The notes below the pieces were generated by a model. The model was not told the origin of the DNA and did no database searches. It was given only the letters and a program-made list of their open reading frames with translations. Both the position numbers and the translations under genes were made by a program. A stretch of DNA of 64,000 nt from Sphingobacteriales bacterium TSM_CSM (GTDB lineage Bacteria; Bacteroidota; Bacteroidia; Chitinophagales; UBA2359), in assembly GCA_002212725.1 (NCBI GenBank), contig MTCR01000102.1, positions 1 through 64,000 of the forward strand. The letters run 5' to 3'. This document shows, one piece after another, positions 2,453 to 21,107 of the stretch. The first letter of the stretch is position 1; every line of letters starts with the position of its first letter.

Positions 2453-3568
2453 CTATTTATTACGTAGCCATGCTTCCAGTTCATCTCCATTTTCTATCAG
2501 CCGGTTATCTCCTGTTGTTTTTCCGGGCACTATTTCACAATAACTGGCAGCACGTTGGTATTTATCCTTACATTTAGCCACTTCCTCTTTATTAAACCAC
2601 ATTTCGAGGTAAATGCCCCATTCTTGGTTCCAATAACAAGCAAACTTATTGTCATAAATTGCAAAATCAAGATCTTTGTTGGGGTTGACGAACTGCTTGC
2701 TAAATCCGTTGTCAACCAATATTCGTATTTTAATACCCAAATCAGCAATGTGTTTTCGCAAAGCCATTTGGTGTTTTTCAGAATAAATAATCTGCTCGCG
2801 CTCACTAATAACAAAAATGCGCTCTACCTTAACGCCGCGATTTACCATTCTTTGATTGGCGGTAAGCCAATGGCTTGCCGCCGGAGTACTCCAATAGTGC
2901 AAATCTTTGTAACTAATGGCTAAATACTCTTGCAATATAAACTTTTCGGCAATCACTTTGTATAGATCATACATGGGTTTGCCTGTTATAAACACCTGTT
3001 TATTTTGCGCCATTTTATCAAGCATTTCCAACTGCTCGCTATGAACAAAATTCATAGCTTCAAGGAATGCGTTATTCCTATTATTCGTTTTATTACTCTC
3101 GGATTTGCTATTTGAATACACATCTATCAGCACCAACTTTTCCAATAATTTCAAAAGTCCTTCTGCTGCATTTTCGTTTAATTGGTCTAAAAGGGCAATT
3201 ATTTTGGATTTGTTGTTGCCAAACCAAAGGTTTTCTGCCCCTGTAGCATCTAAACCTACGGCATACCTGCAAAGCGCATCTATAAATTTGCTGTTAGCCT
3301 CTATATTGTCCGGTTCATTTTGCCTCTCTTTTTTTAATAAGGTATTATACTTCTTTTGTAGTGTTTCAGGGTTTATTGTTTTTTCTTGCACATTTTTTGA
3401 TATATCGGCAGCCAGGTCTTCAAAAAACAGACTTCTGGAAATACCATCTTTTAAAATGGCATTTCCGTTTCTGCCTGTTTCAACACTTTTTTCAACTTGT
3501 GCAACATCAAACTTTAAAAAAACTTTATTTATTAATTTTCTGAAGAAGGGAATGGAGTAATTGGGCAT
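2453..3568 (-). CDS. Hypothetical protein, possibly PLD-like C-terminal half
   Basis: A 371-residue protein without signal peptide or membrane segment, so probably cytoplasmic. I do not recognise the family. The N-terminal half is helical and charged. The C-terminal half (about 200-340) contains YWSTPAASHWLTANQRMVNRG followed by VKVERIFVI and an ILVDNGF segment, alternating helices and strands that recall PLD-like or TrmB-type sensor folds with an RGVxVxRIF strand. No HKD motif is visible, so phospholipase activity cannot be claimed. The gene is clearly more AT-rich than its neighbours, with many AAA and ATT codons, which fits recent acquisition. It stands alone, convergent with the lysyl oxidase gene. 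Confidence 0.7.
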   Translation of the reverse strand: MPNYSIPFFRKLINKVFLKFDVAQVEKSVETGRNGNAILKDGISRSLFFEDLAADISKNVQEKTINPETLQKKYNTLLKKERQNEPDNIEANSKFIDALCRYAVGLDATGAENLWFGNNKSKIIALLDQLNENAAEGLLKLLEKLVLIDVYSNSKSESNKTNNRNNAFLEAMNFVHSEQLEMLDKMAQNKQVFITGKPMYDLYKVIAEKFILQEYLAISYKDLHYWSTPAASHWLTANQRMVNRGVKVERIFVISEREQIIYSEKHQMALRKHIADLGIKIRILVDNGFSKQFVNPNKDLDFAIYDNKFACYWNQEWGIYLEMWFNKEEVAKCKDKYQRAASYCEIVPGKTTGDNRLIENGDELEAWLRNK

Positions 3569-7129: not shown

Positions 7130-9406
7130 ATGAGCAGCAACGGGGTTCTTAAACTCTTTATAGCTTATGCCGGCCAAGATGCGGCATATTGCCACCAACT
7201 GCGGCAACATTTGGCTGCATTGGAGCGCATGGAGCAGGTTCAGATTTGGTACGATGGCGAAATAGTAGCCGGTCAAGATTGGGAAACCGAACTGCTGAAC
7301 CACCTGCAAACTGCCGATATTATACTGCTGTTGGTAAGCCCCGATTTTATTGCTTCCGATTTTTGCTATGAAACCCTGTTTCCCATAGCAATAAAAATGC
7401 ACAAAAGCCAAACAGCAACGGTGGTACCTGTTATTATAAGGCAGTGCATTTGGGAAGAAACCCTGTTGGGGAAAATGAAACCGCTTCCCAAAAACGGGGT
7501 TCCGCCAACCAACCCGGCCATTTGGAGCAGCCCCGATGACGGATACGCCCATATAGCCCACGAATTGAGTTTAATGGTAAACGCCGAACTGCAAAAACGC
7601 GGTCTGCTGCCCCAAGAAGAAGGATCCGTTACCCGGCCTATAAATAAATTTAAACAAGGTAAAGTGTTGTATCTGGTGCCCGAACAAATGCAGGTACTCA
7701 AAAAACACATTTGCCTCATACGCATAGCTCCCGAAGACATAAACCCCGAACTCCTGAAAGAACGGCTTAAAAATGCAACCGATGCGGTTATAGAAAGCAT
7801 ACGCATTGACAGCATTATGAAAGCCGAAATCATTGACGACACCAACGGCGAAGCGTTTGAAATTGACCGCATTGGTGAACTGGAACAACCTATAGAAGAA
7901 GATAATTATACCGAATGGCGGTACCATGTTACCCCGCACAAAGAAGGAGTTTATAACCTTTGCATAAAAGTATCTATACTGGTTAAGGTTGCCGAGCTAA
8001 GCAAGTTTGTATATAAAGATGTGGTGGTTTTAGACCGCACCATTCAGGTAACCACCTACACCATAGAACCGCAGGCTACAGATTGGAGAGTGGCCAATGA
8101 AGTACTGCCCATACAGGAAGCAACCGATTTTAATATAACCGAAGTTAAAAACGAAAATGAACCCACCGGCAACAACCGCCGCCTGCTTGCCCGAATGCTG
8201 ACGGCTATTTTGGCAGCTGTGTTTTTTGTGCCCATTTTATCTTGGGCGTTTCTGGCAGAGTGGGTAACGCCGCTATACCTGAAACTTGCCTACGACGACC
8301 ACCGTACCCTGCAAGATGACCGTATTGCCGTAAAAAAGAACGGCAAGTGGGGCTTTGTAAACAAATGGGGCATTGAAAGCACACCAACTATTTACGACGA
8401 GGCATACAATTTTACCAACGGCATTGCCATGGTAAAACAAAACGGAAAAGAGGTGAAACTTGGGCGCGATACCACACAAAGCCTCTTGCAAAGAATGTGG
8501 AACCCTATAGATTTTGTTATACCCGATAACCTTTGCGCCAACATCAACTGCGGCGCACACGGCACCTGCAACCCGCAAACGGGTAAGTGCAATTGCAAAG
8601 ACGGCTACACTGGCGACAGATGCCAAACCCCGCCGCCAAAACCCGACAACCTCTGCAAAAACATCAACTGCGGCGCACACGGCACCTGCAACCCGCAAAC
8701 GGGTAAGTGCAATTGCAAAGACGGCTACACCGGCGACAGATGCCAAACCCCGCCGCCAAAACCCGACAACCTCTGCAAAAACATCAACTGCGGCGTACAC
8801 GGCACCTGCAACCCGCAAACGGGTAAGTGCAATTGCAAAGACGGCTACACCGGCGACAGATGCCAAACCCCGCCGCCAAAACCCGACAACCCCTGCAGCA
8901 GTATTAACTGCGGTGCACACGGCACCTGCAATCCGCAAACGGGTAAGTGCAATTGCAAAGACGGCTACACCGGCGACAGATGCCAAACCCCGCCCCAACC
9001 GCCCGATGTTTGTGCAGAGTTGCGTTGTAACCCCGTAGGTACAGCATCATGCGATGCCGTAAAACGCAAATGTATTTGCAAACCCGGTTACGAGGGGGCA
9101 CGATGCCAAATTAAAACAGACCCTTGCAGTAATGTGCGTTGCCCGGTAGGAAAGAACTGTGTTAATGGTCAATGCGTATGCCCCGAAGGATTTACCGGAA
9201 AAAATTGCAGAACCCCCGTTAAATGTGTAAATGTAGATTGTGGCACACATGGCAATTGTAACCCCGAAACAGGTGAATGTATTTGCAAAGATGGCTACAC
9301 CGGCAACCGGTGCCAAACCCCGCCCTCTAAATGCGCAAATGTGGTTTGCGACCCCAATTGCCCCTGCGACCCCAAAACCGGCAAGTGCGACTGTGGTATT
9401 GATTAA
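7130..9406 (+). CDS. TIR - transmembrane - WG repeat - EGF-like repeat receptor-like protein
   Basis: A 758-residue protein with unusual domain order. Residues 7-150 form a TIR domain (LFIAYAGQDAAYCHQLRQHL, then DIILLLVSPDFIASDFCYE, then VVPVIIRQCIW). Residues about 165-345 are a beta-rich region with an EWRYHVTPHKEGVYNL strand pair, seen in other bacterial signalling proteins but not named here. One hydrophobic helix lies at about 354-378, preceded by RRLLAR, which predicts the TIR side stays in the cytoplasm. A WG repeat (about 400-445; KKNGKWGFVNKWG) follows, then eight Cys-rich EGF-like modules from about 465 to the end, the first four nearly identical. Bacterial TIRs often hydrolyse NAD+; here the usual C-x-x-E motif reads FCYETLF, so activity is uncertain. 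The gene stands alone. Confidence 0.9.
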   Translation: MSSNGVLKLFIAYAGQDAAYCHQLRQHLAALERMEQVQIWYDGEIVAGQDWETELLNHLQTADIILLLVSPDFIASDFCYETLFPIAIKMHKSQTATVVPVIIRQCIWEETLLGKMKPLPKNGVPPTNPAIWSSPDDGYAHIAHELSLMVNAELQKRGLLPQEEGSVTRPINKFKQGKVLYLVPEQMQVLKKHICLIRIAPEDINPELLKERLKNATDAVIESIRIDSIMKAEIIDDTNGEAFEIDRIGELEQPIEEDNYTEWRYHVTPHKEGVYNLCIKVSILVKVAELSKFVYKDVVVLDRTIQVTTYTIEPQATDWRVANEVLPIQEATDFNITEVKNENEPTGNNRRLLARMLTAILAAVFFVPILSWAFLAEWVTPLYLKLAYDDHRTLQDDRIAVKKNGKWGFVNKWGIESTPTIYDEAYNFTNGIAMVKQNGKEVKLGRDTTQSLLQRMWNPIDFVIPDNLCANINCGAHGTCNPQTGKCNCKDGYTGDRCQTPPPKPDNLCKNINCGAHGTCNPQTGKCNCKDGYTGDRCQTPPPKPDNLCKNINCGVHGTCNPQTGKCNCKDGYTGDRCQTPPPKPDNPCSSINCGAHGTCNPQTGKCNCKDGYTGDRCQTPPQPPDVCAELRCNPVGTASCDAVKRKCICKPGYEGARCQIKTDPCSNVRCPVGKNCVNGQCVCPEGFTGKNCRTPVKCVNVDCGTHGNCNPETGECICKDGYTGNRCQTPPSKCANVVCDPNCPCDPKTGKCDCGID
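8521..9000 (+). repeat. Four tandem 120-bp EGF-encoding units
   Basis: Units at 8521-8640, 8641-8760, 8761-8880 and 8881-9000, each 40 codons and each with six Cys in EGF spacing (CGAHGTCNPQTGKCNCKDGY, then TGDRC). Units two and three differ by one base (GCA/GTA, Ala/Val), so the duplication is recent. Diverged EGF-like modules continue to 9403. Confidence 0.95.
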
Positions 9407-9578: not shown

Positions 9579-10148
9579 ATGAACAACATTATGAAAACGC
9601 AAAACTTTTATGTAGATTCATGCCCCCCGCAAAGGTAAACAAACAATAACCGCTTTAACACAAATAAGAACACCACTTAAATTTTTGATGGATGGCATTT
9701 CTGCTGTTTAACTGCGCGTTCACGCTTAAAGTTCAGACTGAGCCTTCTTTAGACCTCGAAACCACCATTACCGGGGAAATTCCCGGAAGAGTATATTTTG
9801 TGCATTTTAACCCAACCGGAATTGGATTAGATGAGCATCATAATACACAAGTAGTATCTATGTATATTAAATTTTAATTTTATGACCCTTCTGACAACCT
9901 GTGAAACTGCCAATGCCTTGCAATTTATACCTAACCCTGCCAACCAGCAAGTTACCGTTCAGTTCTTGCAGCCGGCACCTGCCCAGGAAACCCTGTATTT
10001 GTATGATATGAGCGGAAAACTGCTGCACACAACCCCTGCCGGCGACAGGGCAACTCTGCAAATAAACACCACAAATCTGTATAACGGTGTTTACTACCTG
10101 CGTTTGGGTACCGGCGCAGAAGTAGAAAAATTAGTTGTCATTCATTAA
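9579..10148 (+). pseudogene. Remnant of a T9SS cargo gene with orphan sorting domain
   Basis: Three broken pieces on one strand. A start (ATG 9579) runs only 19 codons to a stop. A 61-codon frame (9692-9877; ends HHNTQVVSMYIKF) has no recognisable domain. An 88-codon frame (9882-10148) encodes a near-complete type A T9SS sorting domain (LQFIPNPANQQVTVQF, LYLYDMSGKLL, NLYNGVYYLRL, KLVVIH). The sorting domain has no signal peptide or cargo of its own, so it cannot be exported as it stands. A promoter upstream and a terminator downstream (10161-10193) frame the locus like one original transcription unit. Deletion plus frameshift is inferred; a genuine small protein is less likely. Confidence 0.6.
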
Positions 10149-10160
10149 TTATCTCACCCA

Positions 10161-10197
10161 AAGCCGGAAATGCACGTTTGCCATTTCCGGCTTTTCA
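10161..10197 (+). terminator. Rho-independent terminator after the orphan sorting domain
   Basis: Perfect 12-bp arms AAGCCGGAAATG (10161-10172) and CATTTCCGGCTT (10182-10193) with a 9-nt loop and a T-rich tail. Confidence 0.8.
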
Positions 10198-10212
10198 TTT
10201 TACAGTAATACT

Positions 10213-11772
10213 ATGAAAAAAATAATGCTTTTTCTTATATTTATCACTTTTGCGTTAGCTGCACAAACAAGTAATTTTACATATTTTAATAAGATGTTTG
10301 AAGCAGACACTATGAATTTATTATCGCAAGTGGTGAAACCTATAAATGACGGGTATTTAGTGATAGGAGGTTATATAACCGTGAATAAAAAAGCAATTTA
10401 CATTATGAAACTAAGTTTAATAGGAGATGTAGTTTGGTTTAAACATCTTGACGAGGGCAATAACTTGGGAGTAGTAGAGGATGGCAAATTTGCTATTGCC
10501 ACTAGTGATAATAAATTTGTTATAACTTATGCAAAGGGGCAGCCAATCAATGGGTTTGGAGAAATGCATTTAACAAAGTTTGATGAGTCTGGTGAAATTT
10601 TATGGCATAAAGTATATTCAGACTCATCATCTAAATATGCAAAGCAAGTGATAGAAACTACAGATGGGGGGTTTGCCTTAGTTGGCGTACAGGGGGAAAA
10701 TTCTCCTGCCCGTTACTATTTACTCAAAACCGATGCTGCCGGCAATTTTGAATGGGATAGGTCTTATATATTAGATGATAGTTCTGCGGCCTTCTCCATA
10801 CAAGAAACCCCCTGGGACGGCGGCTTTATCATAGGCGGGTATGCCTACAACACCGCCTCCGGCACCGGCAACTACGATGCCTGGGTCATTAAAACCAACT
10901 ACCTTGGCGATACCCTCTGGACCCGCACCTACGGCGACCCAACCGGCAACGATTGTGCCTGTAAAGTTATTCCCCTTACCACCCTACAAGAGTACTTTTT
11001 TGAGGGCAAGCCAATTATTTATTTACTAACCGGCTGTATTAAAATTGGCTCCAATACGTATTCTTACGCTGCCCATCTTGATGAAAATGGCAATATTCTT
11101 TGGGAAAGAATTTACAGCCCCGAAAATGCGCTCTTTAACGGCGATGTTGGAGAAGGGGTTGTTGGTTTTCAGACCTACCCAATTATAAGGGCAGATCGTT
11201 CTTATATTGCGGTCATGTACAAGTATAATTCGTTGGGCAACTATTCCAATCTGCTGGTAGATTTCGATAAATACGGTATTGTCAACTGGAATAAGGAGTT
11301 GGAGCTAAACCCCGAAGCCGATTGTTACCTCAAAGACATGCAACCCACCCCCGATGGCGGCTACGTGCTGGCAGGCTATCGGTACGATGTACCCCAAAAA
11401 GGGTGGATACTCAAAATAGATGCAGATGGCAACTACTGCACCCCCGTAGGTTGCGATAGTACGGTAGTAGTATCGGCAGCAGAAACAGCAGGTTTACCCA
11501 ACAAAACACCCATGTCGCTGGTACAGATAAATCCCAATCCGGTGCGGGGCGGCGGCGTGTTCACCATATCCCACCAGCTACCTGCCGAGTTTCCGGTGGC
11601 GCAGTTCATCCTCTACAACCAACTTGGCAAAGCAGTCTGGCAGCAGGAATTTAATACATGGGACAGAACAAAAATTTTGCAGTTGCCGCCCGGTTTACCC
11701 ATGGGTTTATACCTTTGGCAGGTATCTTATATGGGCAATGTTGCGGCAAGCGGGAAGGTAGTGGTAGAATAG
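10213..11772 (+). CDS. Secreted T9SS cargo protein with DGG repeats
   Basis: A 519-residue protein from the ATG at 10213, chosen because MKKIMLFLIFITFALAAQ is a clear signal peptide; in-frame codons upstream overlap the previous terminator. Repeats with a TTDGGFALVGV / TPDGGYVLAGY / WDGGFIIGGY pattern recur through the body, as in beta-propeller-like secreted proteins that carry a type A tail. The C-terminus (about 430-519) is a T9SS sorting domain (VQINPNPV, FILYNQLGKAVWQQEF, MGLYLWQVSY, GKVVVE). Substrate or ligand is unknown. The first 500 bases are more AT-rich than the remainder, hinting at a mosaic origin. Confidence 0.8.
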   Translation: MKKIMLFLIFITFALAAQTSNFTYFNKMFEADTMNLLSQVVKPINDGYLVIGGYITVNKKAIYIMKLSLIGDVVWFKHLDEGNNLGVVEDGKFAIATSDNKFVITYAKGQPINGFGEMHLTKFDESGEILWHKVYSDSSSKYAKQVIETTDGGFALVGVQGENSPARYYLLKTDAAGNFEWDRSYILDDSSAAFSIQETPWDGGFIIGGYAYNTASGTGNYDAWVIKTNYLGDTLWTRTYGDPTGNDCACKVIPLTTLQEYFFEGKPIIYLLTGCIKIGSNTYSYAAHLDENGNILWERIYSPENALFNGDVGEGVVGFQTYPIIRADRSYIAVMYKYNSLGNYSNLLVDFDKYGIVNWNKELELNPEADCYLKDMQPTPDGGYVLAGYRYDVPQKGWILKIDADGNYCTPVGCDSTVVVSAAETAGLPNKTPMSLVQINPNPVRGGGVFTISHQLPAEFPVAQFILYNQLGKAVWQQEFNTWDRTKILQLPPGLPMGLYLWQVSYMGNVAASGKVVVE

Positions 11773-13603: not shown

Positions 13604-15748
13604 CTATTGTTCATCGGCTTCGTACCACTGCAGTTCTTCGGCAGAAAGGTCTTTTACCCCTCTGTCTGCTGCGTTTTTAAGCAGCACATCGGCGCCGGTA
13701 GGCCAAAGCATGGGGCTTTCCTTTTCGGCTACGGTAGCCAGCCACTCGCCGGTGTGGTTAAACCTTACCTGTTGCAGGGGGCGGCCCGGGGCAGCAAAAA
13801 TGGTAATAACGGGTTGTCCTTTTCCATTCCATACAGAGGCCGAACCGTTTTCGGCAGCAATGGCTACATAGTCGTCATTTGGGGTAAAATCGGCATCATT
13901 CAGTTCTCCGGCGTAGGGGGCAATTATCAGGTCTGCGGTGGGGTTGGCATTGCTGTCCATACTCCAAATAAGGGCTTTACCATCTTTAGAGGTGGTAATA
14001 AGTTGTGCGCCGCTTTTAGAAAAGCGCACTGCGGTAATTGTTTTGGCGTGTCCGGCAAGGGTGGCCAGGTTTTCGCCGGTCAGGTTCCATATTTTGGCGG
14101 TATGGTCAAAAGAAGCGGTGGCAATATATTTGTTGTTGTGCGAAAAAGCGGCGTTGGTAAGCCAGTCGGTATGTGCGCTAAAAGCGGCCAGCCGGTTGCC
14201 GCTCCAATCCCAAATTTGGGCATTGCCATATTGGTCGGCGGTAAAAATATGGGTTTGTTTGGGCGAGAACCACACATTATACCCCTTTGCCGAGTTTCCC
14301 TGAAGCGCCAGCACCTGTTTGTTCTGGTCGTTCCATACCAGTGTTTCGTAGTTGTTTTGGGTGGCGGTAAACAGTTGTGCGGGGGGGTAATAGGCATACG
14401 CAATGGCATTGGCAGGCGTTGTAAGGGTGTTTACCAAATTTCCGTTCCAGTTCCAGACTTTGGTAAGGTGGGCGGTATCGGTAGTGATGATGTGTTGTTC
14501 ATCGGGCGAAAAAACGGTTTGGCTTATGGTATTGTTGGCCAGCCGGGCAATTATACCCGATTTCCAGTTCCAAATCCGGGCGGTTCCGTCTTCGGAAGTG
14601 GTAAGCACATAGGTGCCGTCATAAGAAAAACGGGCGTTGTACAAGGGCGCCTTGTGTCCGCGCAGCACGGTTTTAAGGGTGCCCGATGCGGCATCCCAGA
14701 TAATGGCGGTTTTATCGGCAGCGGCGGTAACAAAGTACCGTCCATCGGGCGAAAAGGCAAGGTGGCGTACAGGTGCGCCATGTCCGTACAAAGTTTTCAG
14801 GTATTTTCCCTGCATATCGTACAAATCGGTTACCCCATAGGCGGTGCTTGCGGCAAAGGTGGTGCCGGTTGGCGAAAAAGCAACATCGGTATAGGTATCG
14901 GTAGGTTGTACTACGGTAAACAGCAGTTTTACCGGGTTTTTCAAATCAAAAAAAGCCAGTTTAAACCCGTCGGAGGTAAGGAGGTAGCGTCCGTCGGGCG
15001 AAATTCTGACAAAGGTAAGGAGTTCCATGTTGTTGCCCGGGGTAATTACCTGTGTGTTGTTGCCCTGCCAGTCCCACAGTCTTATGGTTCCATCCCAGCC
15101 GGCGGTGGCAATGGTATTGCCATCGGGCGAAATGTTGAGGTCAAACACAGGGGCCTTATGGCCTTTAAGGTGCAGCAACAGTTTGCCGGCGCTGTCCCAC
15201 AAAATGGCGGTATAGTCTTCGGAGGTGGTAAAGGCATAAATGCCGTTGGGGGTAAATCCAACCGAGTAAACAGGGCGGTTGTGTGCATTGAGTTCGGTGG
15301 TGGCGCCGGTGGCTACGTTTATAAGTTGTGCGTTGTTTCCGGCATCGGCAATAAGATACTGCCCGTCGGGCGAAAAGGCGGCGTTAAATATGGTTTTGTT
15401 AAAGGTATAAGCCGTTTGGTAAAACGGCGTGGAATAGTAGTTGTTATCTATTTCAAACACATCGTTGTAATAGGCTTTCAGCAGGGTTTCGTATGCGTTG
15501 CGGTTGGGCTGCAACTGCCACGATTGGGCTGCCAGCCTGAAACTTTCAGTGGGGTTGTTGAGGCGGTAAAGTGTTTCCAGTGCATCGGAATTAAGATGTT
15601 CGGCCCGATTCTGGTTCATTTGCTGCCTCATATCGGCCCTGCATTGCGCCAGCTCTTTGGTTTTGCAACCCGAAAAAACAACAGAAAAAATAAATAACAA
15701 AGCAAATATATTTATTGCAGTGTGGCAGATTTTAGGTTGAACAGGCAT
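13604..15748 (-). CDS. WD40-repeat lipoprotein
   Basis: A 714-residue protein with a lipobox (VVFSGC, Cys28) after a hydrophobic segment, hence a lipoprotein attached to the inner or outer membrane. After a short helical region (30-110) about a dozen WD40 repeats follow, with recurrent FSPDGQYL..., TAAADKTAIIWD and HGAPVRHLAFSPDGRY patterns, enough for two propellers. WD40 propellers are protein-interaction platforms; partner unknown. The gene sits just downstream of the lamin-tail-domain gene on the same strand (62 nt gap) and may be co-transcribed. Its complementary strand is also open for most of its length, an effect of codon bias. Confidence 0.88.
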   Translation of the reverse strand: MPVQPKICHTAINIFALLFIFSVVFSGCKTKELAQCRADMRQQMNQNRAEHLNSDALETLYRLNNPTESFRLAAQSWQLQPNRNAYETLLKAYYNDVFEIDNNYYSTPFYQTAYTFNKTIFNAAFSPDGQYLIADAGNNAQLINVATGATTELNAHNRPVYSVGFTPNGIYAFTTSEDYTAILWDSAGKLLLHLKGHKAPVFDLNISPDGNTIATAGWDGTIRLWDWQGNNTQVITPGNNMELLTFVRISPDGRYLLTSDGFKLAFFDLKNPVKLLFTVVQPTDTYTDVAFSPTGTTFAASTAYGVTDLYDMQGKYLKTLYGHGAPVRHLAFSPDGRYFVTAAADKTAIIWDAASGTLKTVLRGHKAPLYNARFSYDGTYVLTTSEDGTARIWNWKSGIIARLANNTISQTVFSPDEQHIITTDTAHLTKVWNWNGNLVNTLTTPANAIAYAYYPPAQLFTATQNNYETLVWNDQNKQVLALQGNSAKGYNVWFSPKQTHIFTADQYGNAQIWDWSGNRLAAFSAHTDWLTNAAFSHNNKYIATASFDHTAKIWNLTGENLATLAGHAKTITAVRFSKSGAQLITTSKDGKALIWSMDSNANPTADLIIAPYAGELNDADFTPNDDYVAIAAENGSASVWNGKGQPVITIFAAPGRPLQQVRFNHTGEWLATVAEKESPMLWPTGADVLLKNAADRGVKDLSAEELQWYEADEQ

Positions 15749-19654: not shown

Positions 19655-20854
19655 TTATTCGGCGCTGCTATCGGCCTCTTTTTCTTTTCCGTCAAAATCA
19701 AAAGTGAGGGAGAAGCGCAGGGTGTTGTCTAAGGGGTTTCGTTGTCCGCTAACCGGAACGAGGTAAGAGAAATTAAACCCGAAAACACTGTAGCGCAGGC
19801 CCAAGCCCACTGTAAGAAATTTGCGGTTGCCTTTGTATTTATGTTCATTGAAATAGCCGGTTCTGAGGGCAAACTGGTTGTTATACCAATACTCTGCCCC
19901 TATTGAAAACATTAACTCCTGCAATTCTTCTTTAAATCCGCCGGGGGCATCGTTGAACGAGCCAAACATACCGCTAAGGAGGGGCTTTTCGCGCGTATCG
20001 GGCACCTGATTTTCGTCAAGGTCAAGCGTATCGGGGGTAGGCACCATGAGTTTGTTCATATCGGCAGTTACCAAAATAGAGTTGTGGTCGTCAATATTCA
20101 TTTTCAGGGCAGCGCCAAGCCCCATGTTAATGGGTATAAAATCGCGGGTATCATCATTGAGGTATGATACTTTGTTACCGATGTTGGTAAACGCGGCGCC
20201 AAGCGAAAGGGTGCTTCCGCCGGGGGTAAGGTTAAGCGGGGTTTTGTAGTAAAAGCCTATATCGGCTGCTACTGCCTGTGCTGCTTTTACAATATTTCCG
20301 CTGCCCACTTCTTGTCCGCGGGCAAGGTCGGAGCGAATATATTTAAGGGTAATACCGGTAGCAAACTTATCGGACAAGCGGCGTGAGTACCCCAGGTCAA
20401 AGGCAAACTCATTGGGGTTGTATTGTCCGGCATCGTTACCGGTAATATCGGTAAAGTTAATATTTCCCAAAGAGAAATAGCGCATGGAAAGCCCTATTGA
20501 CTGTAGTTTGTCAATTTTGTAATAGCCGCTCACATAGGCAATGTAGATGTCGTTTACCAATTCGCGCAGCCACGGGGTATAGGTAAGACTTACGCCTACC
20601 ATTTTGGGTGCAAAAGCCAGTTTACCAATATTATGGTACATGGCGGCGGGGTCGGGGTCGGTAGCAATACCTGCATCACCCATACCGCCGGTTCTGCCAT
20701 CGGGGTTAATGCGCAAAAACGGAATAGAGGTAAATACAGTATTCACCCGCCCGTCTAATTGGCCGGTATTGGTAACCCCCTGTGCGTGCACAACAGAAAA
20801 ACAACCGCTAAGGGCTGCAAAAGCCAGCAACATCTGGCAAAACATTTTTTTCAT
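19655..20854 (-). CDS. porV: Type IX secretion outer-membrane protein PorV (LptO)
   Basis: A 399-residue protein with signal peptide (MKKMFCQMLLAFAALSGCF, cleavage near VHAQ) and a FadL-like 14-strand barrel. PorV family marks: FLRINPDGRTGGMGDAGIA, PAAMYHNIGKLAF, TYTPWLRELVNDI, and a final strand of alternating residues (LRFSLTFDF). PorV receives folded cargo from the SprA translocon and delivers it to the PorU sortase/attachment complex. porU, often directly upstream of porV, is not adjacent here: upstream is a 0.5 kb gap with a possible RNA gene. The start at 20854 is preferred over an ATG four codons upstream because MKK begins a standard signal peptide. Confidence 0.92.
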   Translation of the reverse strand: MKKMFCQMLLAFAALSGCFSVVHAQGVTNTGQLDGRVNTVFTSIPFLRINPDGRTGGMGDAGIATDPDPAAMYHNIGKLAFAPKMVGVSLTYTPWLRELVNDIYIAYVSGYYKIDKLQSIGLSMRYFSLGNINFTDITGNDAGQYNPNEFAFDLGYSRRLSDKFATGITLKYIRSDLARGQEVGSGNIVKAAQAVAADIGFYYKTPLNLTPGGSTLSLGAAFTNIGNKVSYLNDDTRDFIPINMGLGAALKMNIDDHNSILVTADMNKLMVPTPDTLDLDENQVPDTREKPLLSGMFGSFNDAPGGFKEELQELMFSIGAEYWYNNQFALRTGYFNEHKYKGNRKFLTVGLGLRYSVFGFNFSYLVPVSGQRNPLDNTLRFSLTFDFDGKEKEADSSAE

Positions 20855-21107
20855 ATTCAATAGCAATGTTACAAGTTAATGAGTAAAGATTAAAACAACG
20901 TGTAAAACTTTTTTACATAGGCAATCTGGCAGAAAAAACGTTGTTATGGTTGGAAAGTTGGTTAAACCGGATTGAATTTACTCAAATTTAAGCAGAAAAA
21001 TTTTTTAATCGGCAAAGGGTGCCTTAAAAAATTTACTATTCATTAAAAATACACGCAAAGGTAAGCATAATTTGGGTAAACAGGTAGCGCTATGTAATTT
21101 GCGCCGT

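Follow-up and report, generated by a model that had tools for sequence, protein, structure and literature searches.

A protein that joins an N-terminal TIR domain to a C-terminal chain of EGF modules through a single transmembrane (TM) helix is encoded in the window analysed here (the whole 64,000-nucleotide stretch from Sphingobacteriales bacterium TSM_CSM). This architecture is genuine and conserved, and we found no earlier description of it within the reach of the tools used. The strongest clue to the function of this TIR-EGF protein is a beta-sandwich between TIR and helix, the mid domain, which connects it with a membrane chassis of the EAD11 type. The finding of broader scope is the mid-TM chassis as a whole. 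The TIR-EGF protein is a variant of the EAD/TIR conflict-type proteins, not a new category. Our leading reading, which falls a little short of an even chance, is that of a single-pass inner-membrane sensor or adaptor whose TIR serves as an assembly platform rather than as an NAD+ hydrolase.

A conserved TIR-EGF architecture

The gene runs from an ATG start to a TAA stop, and the domains of its product follow in the order TIR, mid domain, disordered linker, TM helix, WG repeat and EGF modules (Table 1). An earlier note on this DNA had proposed a TIR domain, membrane helix, WG repeat and EGF-like repeats in one bacterial protein, and the reading frame, Pfam, hydropathy and AlphaFold all bear this out; its domain list stands, with the mid beta-sandwich as the part that it overlooked. 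Pfam placed TIR_2 at residues 10-108 (E = 1.9e-12), WG_beta_rep at 407-440 (E = 4.6e-10; one repeat is clear, a second weak) and EGF families with E-values down to 7e-30, while no LRR family rose above the Pfam cut-off. Seven EGF modules (469-728) are complete in six-cysteine spacing and fold, with Pfam matches and a structural match of the model to solved human Notch-1; the last of the eight modules counted in the earlier note (735-755) is truncated. The full-length AlphaFold model (mean pLDDT 80.7) contained the TIR (~96), the beta-sandwich at 175-308, an unstructured linker at 311-347, a helix at 349-387, WG strands and EGF hairpins, and so supplied both the EGF fold and the membrane helix on which the earlier reading depended; its pTM was low (0.37), so the relative placement of the domains in it is untrustworthy.

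Table 1. Features of the TIR-EGF gene, with positions in the window
Feature	Position	Strand	Basis or remark
Whole gene	7130..9406	+	ORF, 758 aa; orthologues in both other genus genomes
TIR domain, residues 7-157	7148..7600	+	Pfam TIR_2; AlphaFold pLDDT ~96; Z up to 15.5 vs solved TIRs
Codon 83 (Leu), catalytic-Glu column of NADase TIRs	7376..7378	+	Alignment and independent HMM alignment
Mid domain, 136-aa beta-sandwich, residues 176-311	7655..8062	+	Profile matches 37/299 order genomes; AlphaFold pLDDT 93.6
Low-confidence linker, probably disordered, residues 312-348	8063..8173	+	pLDDT 31-48
Transmembrane helix ~352-374 (modelled 349-387), Arg on N-terminal side	8183..8251	+	Hydropathy 2.33; AlphaFold helix
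WG beta repeat, residues 407-440	8348..8449	+	Pfam PF14903, E = 4.6e-10
EGF module 1, 469-498	8534..8623	+	Six-cysteine pattern; PF07974
EGF module 2, 509-538	8654..8743	+	Six-cysteine pattern; Pfam
EGF module 3, 549-578	8774..8863	+	Six-cysteine pattern; Pfam
EGF module 4, 589-618	8894..8983	+	Six-cysteine pattern; Pfam
EGF module 5, 628-659	9011..9106	+	Six-cysteine pattern
EGF module 6, 666-693	9125..9208	+	Six-cysteine pattern
EGF module 7, 699-728	9224..9313	+	Six-cysteine pattern
EGF-like module 8, truncated, 735-755	9332..9394	+	Six-cysteine pattern; complete in closest orthologue
4 x 120-bp tandem repeat encoding EGF modules 1-4	8521..8998	+	Tandem Repeats Finder, 95% matches

The protein has no signal peptide and only one strong hydrophobic stretch, with R350, R351 and R355 at its TIR-side end, in agreement with the single Arg-flanked helix noted earlier; 48 of its 53 cysteines, and all of the cysteine-rich EGF modules, lie beyond the helix. 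These features favor the proposed placement of the TIR in the cytoplasm and the EGFs outside the inner membrane, as a predicted topology: we infer that the N terminus is inside and that the EGFs are periplasmic and disulfide-bonded. Among EGF proteins elsewhere in the family, most of those inspected carry a lipoprotein-type export signal. Relative to an animal receptor the order is inverted, as had been claimed, with the TIR at the N terminus and the ectodomain at the C terminus.

Both other genomes examined from the genus (G002 and UBA2322) encode the same domain order on different contigs, a repetition that argues against chance. The G002 orthologue (NBMY01000080.1) is 81% identical with nine complete EGF modules, and that of UBA2322 is 52% identical with seven plus a CARDB domain. 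NG86 omega values against the two orthologues were 0.06 and 0.14 for the TIR and 0.14 and 0.12 for the mid domain; the TIR is under strong purifying selection and the gene is a maintained one. The DNA of EGF modules 1-4, at 91-99% nucleotide identity, consists of tandem copies homogenised within each lineage, and since these modules are closer to each other within each genome than those of UBA2322 are to the others, tandem duplication or homogenisation must have recurred. All three genomes are drafts, in which near-identical repeat DNA can be miscounted, and we considered whether animal EGF sequence or the joining of two genes by misassembly could have produced the protein; this is scarcely credible, given the same order on different contigs of three independent genomes, EGF sequences that are lineage-specific, and the many EGF proteins of the same family. 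Only the exact number of modules is doubtful on this account.

The full TIR-mid-TM-WG-EGF architecture was not found outside the genus in 150 relatives, 299 order genomes (scanned with EGF_2) or 295 class genomes, sets that are samples and not a census. EGF_2 was positive in 22 of the 299 order genomes, with frames longer than 600 aa confined to this genus, and a scan of viral contigs with the three-orthologue alignment yielded no relatives. Thus a search of domain architectures, which the earlier note had named as the check on its reading, leaves the complete combination in this genus only, within the sampled genomes. Its statement that no bacterial protein of this order has been described also held in the literature searched on TIR plus EGF, membrane TIRs and EAD11, a search that covered few subscription journals.

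The gene stands alone, with no conserved operon partner and with different flanks in UBA2322; upstream lies a divergent TonB-dependent-type outer-membrane gene that G002 shares but UBA2322 does not, and promoter and terminator scans gave results near chance. Elsewhere in the window we observed a lysyl-oxidase domain protein (2-2392; PF01186, E = 1.6e-35), of a family best known from animals; a protein of 371 aa that weakly matches DUF6879 (2453-3568, minus strand), where no ORF of such size lies between the corresponding G002 genes; a probable lipoprotein with many WD40 repeats (13604-15748, minus strand); a weak CHU_C match within 10135-11772; and a Type IX secretion sorting domain (9882-10148) and a PorV gene (19655-20866), which together fit a Bacteroidota genome.

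The mid domain and its membrane chassis

Modelled alone (residues 176-311), the mid domain is a compact beta-sandwich (pLDDT 93.6). It is undescribed: no Pfam family covered it in a scan of 32 members, sequence search of the PDB returned one chance-level match and no relative, and we found no description in the literature searched. A profile built from six sequences matched 37 of the 299 order genomes and 7 of 395 phylum genomes, with no match in plasmids; the TIR-EGF protein scored E = 5.4e-63 against this profile and is 26-37% identical to most members. Its fold neighbors are the macroglobulin (MG) domains of complement proteins (Z ~10 over ~100 residues), tied with the UPA region of UNC5b (Z 9.2 over 120 of the 136 residues), which we treat as a resemblance in predicted fold and not an assignment. 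We did not adopt a UPA identity of the UNC5b/PIDD type, the 32-member Pfam scan having given no UPA match and the tie being one of fold only; a PF17217 search, with 0 of 100 genomes matched, was uninformative because its controls were equally silent.

EAD11 (PF19964) accompanies the domain in 26 of the 28 mid proteins examined, and beyond the helix these 28 carry FGE-sulfatase (6), Fib_succ_major (2), TonB_C (2) or nothing named. The helix follows mid in 29 of 30 full-length chassis proteins, our three orthologues included, and in 24 of these 29 Lys/Arg is more abundant on the side of mid. The exception, L059, has the order TIR-mid-caspase-EAD11 with no helix, and L069 (631-3081) has the order caspase-mid-TM-Fib_succ_major, with a protease in the EAD11 position; these two arrangements show that EAD11 and effectors can be swapped for one another around mid. 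In the sampled order the recurrent chassis is [EAD11 or effector]-mid-TM-[variable ectodomain], with mid as its core.

In common with the EAD11 conflict-system proteins, the TIR-EGF protein has the mid domain and, C-terminal to it, one TM helix with positive charge on the mid side; it differs from them in having a TIR where EAD11 would stand at the N terminus, and WG and EGF repeats instead of an FGE, Fib_succ_major or TonB_C ectodomain. Because mid is shared with EAD11-mid-TM proteins, the TIR-EGF protein is best understood as a chassis protein with TIR in the place of EAD11. As set out by Kaur et al. 2020/2021 (PMC7159879, PMC8195603), the role of EADs is to recruit effectors to sensors, and TIR and caspase are among the EAD-linked effectors; a TIR fused directly in the EAD11 position is consistent with that logic. 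The main texts of both papers make no mention of EGF or WG repeats. Predicted conflict sensors of both periplasmic and cytoplasmic kinds have been reported in a multicellular bacterium (PMC10907252). A search of the three genus genomes gave no EAD11, which excludes the wider EAD11 network as the partner of the TIR-EGF protein.

Other settings of mid were also seen. One protein (L106:2302-3663, at G009:C26) combines an N-terminal helix, a possible TPR, mid, a second helix and a C-terminal TIR, the ectodomain-TM-TIR order of animal TLRs. Six distant phylum members (L051-L056) are short mid proteins, most with a C-terminal helix, and L051-L054 have a lipobox-like N terminus and the appearance of lipoproteins. 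Since mid may thus also lie outside the cytoplasm, it does not itself fix the side of the membrane.

The WG-EGF tail might instead be an envelope stalk or adhesin that merely anchors or positions the protein, with no outside ligand and with any signal arising in the cytoplasm. The homogenised modules 1-4 and the varying count of complete modules (7, 9 and 7 across the orthologues) are stalk-like, and the same WG-EGF tail is also found in this genome on an unrelated WD40/PKD protein of 1613 aa (L043:6419-11260, at G000:C127), which a TIR-iSTAND gene adjoins. We nevertheless hold a stalk to be unlikely, because the tail occupies the position of chassis ectodomains with lectin-fold FGE or Fib_succ_major domains, and an invader-sensing role has been proposed for the FGE-type (FGS) domains of related systems (PMC8195603). 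The 1613-aa protein was set aside as independent evidence of EGF export, its own topology being ambiguous. Both it and L047:4863-9599 are of ~1600 aa, with PKD, TPR, WD40, WG, one or two C-terminal EGFs and several helices, and both have the WG-EGF tail in common with the TIR-EGF protein; in UBA2322 a protein of more than 2500 aa (L049:3-7550) has an EGF-like array before PKD-like repeats.

The TIR domain and its missing glutamate

The TIR model matched solved plant, animal and bacterial TIRs at Z 12-15.5. In the column of the catalytic helix-C glutamate the protein has Leu83, and the three orthologues have Leu, Leu and Ile; of 16 non-orthologous TIRs from the order, 13 carry Glu there. When the three were aligned to an HMM from which they had been left out, this region came through gap-free with top posterior, and in a TIR profile search the Leu83 column coincided with the Glu that AbTir and Cat1 conserve. 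This Glu is present in more than 70% of all TIRs and is critical for NADase activity; the figure exceeds 90% for the plant NB-LRR and SARM1 groups and falls below 10% for MyD88, TIRAP and endosomal TLRs, although its frequency does not strictly parallel activity (PMC7075850). Given that caution, and with E81 two residues away, the missing Glu should be taken as not decisive for activity. Still, its loss together with strong purifying selection points, short of proof, to a maintained non-enzymatic role. The TIR enzyme suggested in the earlier note (NAD+ hydrolysis or signalling) is weakened, and NAD+ hydrolysis is not supported as the default for this TIR.

A membrane-tethered TIR enzyme could yet be at work, processing NAD+ through E81, another residue or mixed filaments with a Glu-bearing TIR, under the switch of the ectodomain. 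The fold is intact, its closest neighbors including the NADase TIRs AbTir (Z 14.6) and SARM1 (Z 12.6), the ThsB model of PADLOC matches with E = 7.6e-36, and E81 is kept in two of the three orthologues; against this, the third (UBA2322) has Gln there, and none of the three has Glu in the catalytic column. We rate such an enzyme as improbable. The same profile match (PADLOC ThsB1) might suggest an antiphage component like that of Thoeris, which we consider very improbable: no SIR2, SLOG or macro domain of the ThsA type occurs in the neighbors scanned, this type of TIR is common to many unrelated architectures here, and the Glu is lost. A ThsB identity, for which the profile match was the sole sign, was accordingly rejected.

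On contig C90 of the same genome, a TIR-TM-ectodomain protein (L003:1486-2811) retains the Glu and is a candidate partner of the TIR-EGF protein. It resembles two further TIR-TM proteins of the order (L013 and L025) in having, like the TIR-EGF protein, an N-terminal TIR, then a TM helix and, beyond that, a further C-terminal part; unlike it, these three are not among the mid matches and have no EGF, and L003 and L025 retain Glu.

Proposed function and known systems

From what computation establishes (domain order, conservation, predicted folds, loss of the Glu and the relationship to the chassis) we infer sensing, TIR-TIR recruitment and a context of defence or stress. In the proposed mechanism, TIR and mid would lie in the cytoplasm, and the WG repeat and disulfide-bonded EGF chain in the periplasm. 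Where EAD11 of the chassis would dock effectors, TIR would replace it; a signal from the envelope, or the clustering of EGF ectodomains, would gather TIRs at the inner face of the membrane. With the canonical Glu gone, these TIRs are most likely scaffolds, not NAD+ hydrolysers, and once gathered would most likely form an assembly platform for other TIR proteins, such as the Glu-bearing C90 protein.

The bacterial TIR proteins studied to date mostly detect threats inside the cytoplasm. If the chassis reading is true, the EAD11/caspase/TIR-mid-TM-ectodomain group would be receptors that face the envelope and are coupled to these same effectors, a receptor layer comparable to animal Toll-like receptors. 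The missing catalytic Glu makes the protein a stringent test case for bacterial TIRs as pure scaffolds. More tentatively than the sensor or adaptor itself, we entertain a convergent analogue of the Toll-like receptors: a single-pass receptor with an EGF ectodomain, whose catalytically dead TIR nucleates TIR assemblies inside the cell, in an undescribed class of membrane receptors that share the beta-sandwich and freely exchange the cytoplasmic output module (EAD11, caspase or TIR) and the ectodomain.

Animal Toll-like receptors are single-pass proteins with an ectodomain and a cytoplasmic TIR, as also predicted here, whereas the TIR-EGF protein has its TIR at the N terminus, EGF and WG repeats rather than LRRs, and an extra beta-sandwich; we take the likeness to be convergent. 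The scaffold role may be likened to that of MyD88, TIRAP and the endosomal TLRs, where the Glu is also rare. With the bacterial NADase TIRs (AbTir, SPARTA TIR-APAZ and Cat1) and SARM1 the protein shares the TIR fold (Z 12-15), but it has Leu/Ile for their conserved helix-C Glu and is fused to a membrane helix and ectodomain. Tandem six-cysteine EGF modules are common to it, the Notch and teneurin EGF arrays and the bacterial EGF lipoproteins of the family; in the other bacteria examined, EGF modules occur mostly on lipoproteins or secreted proteins and are not fused to a TIR.
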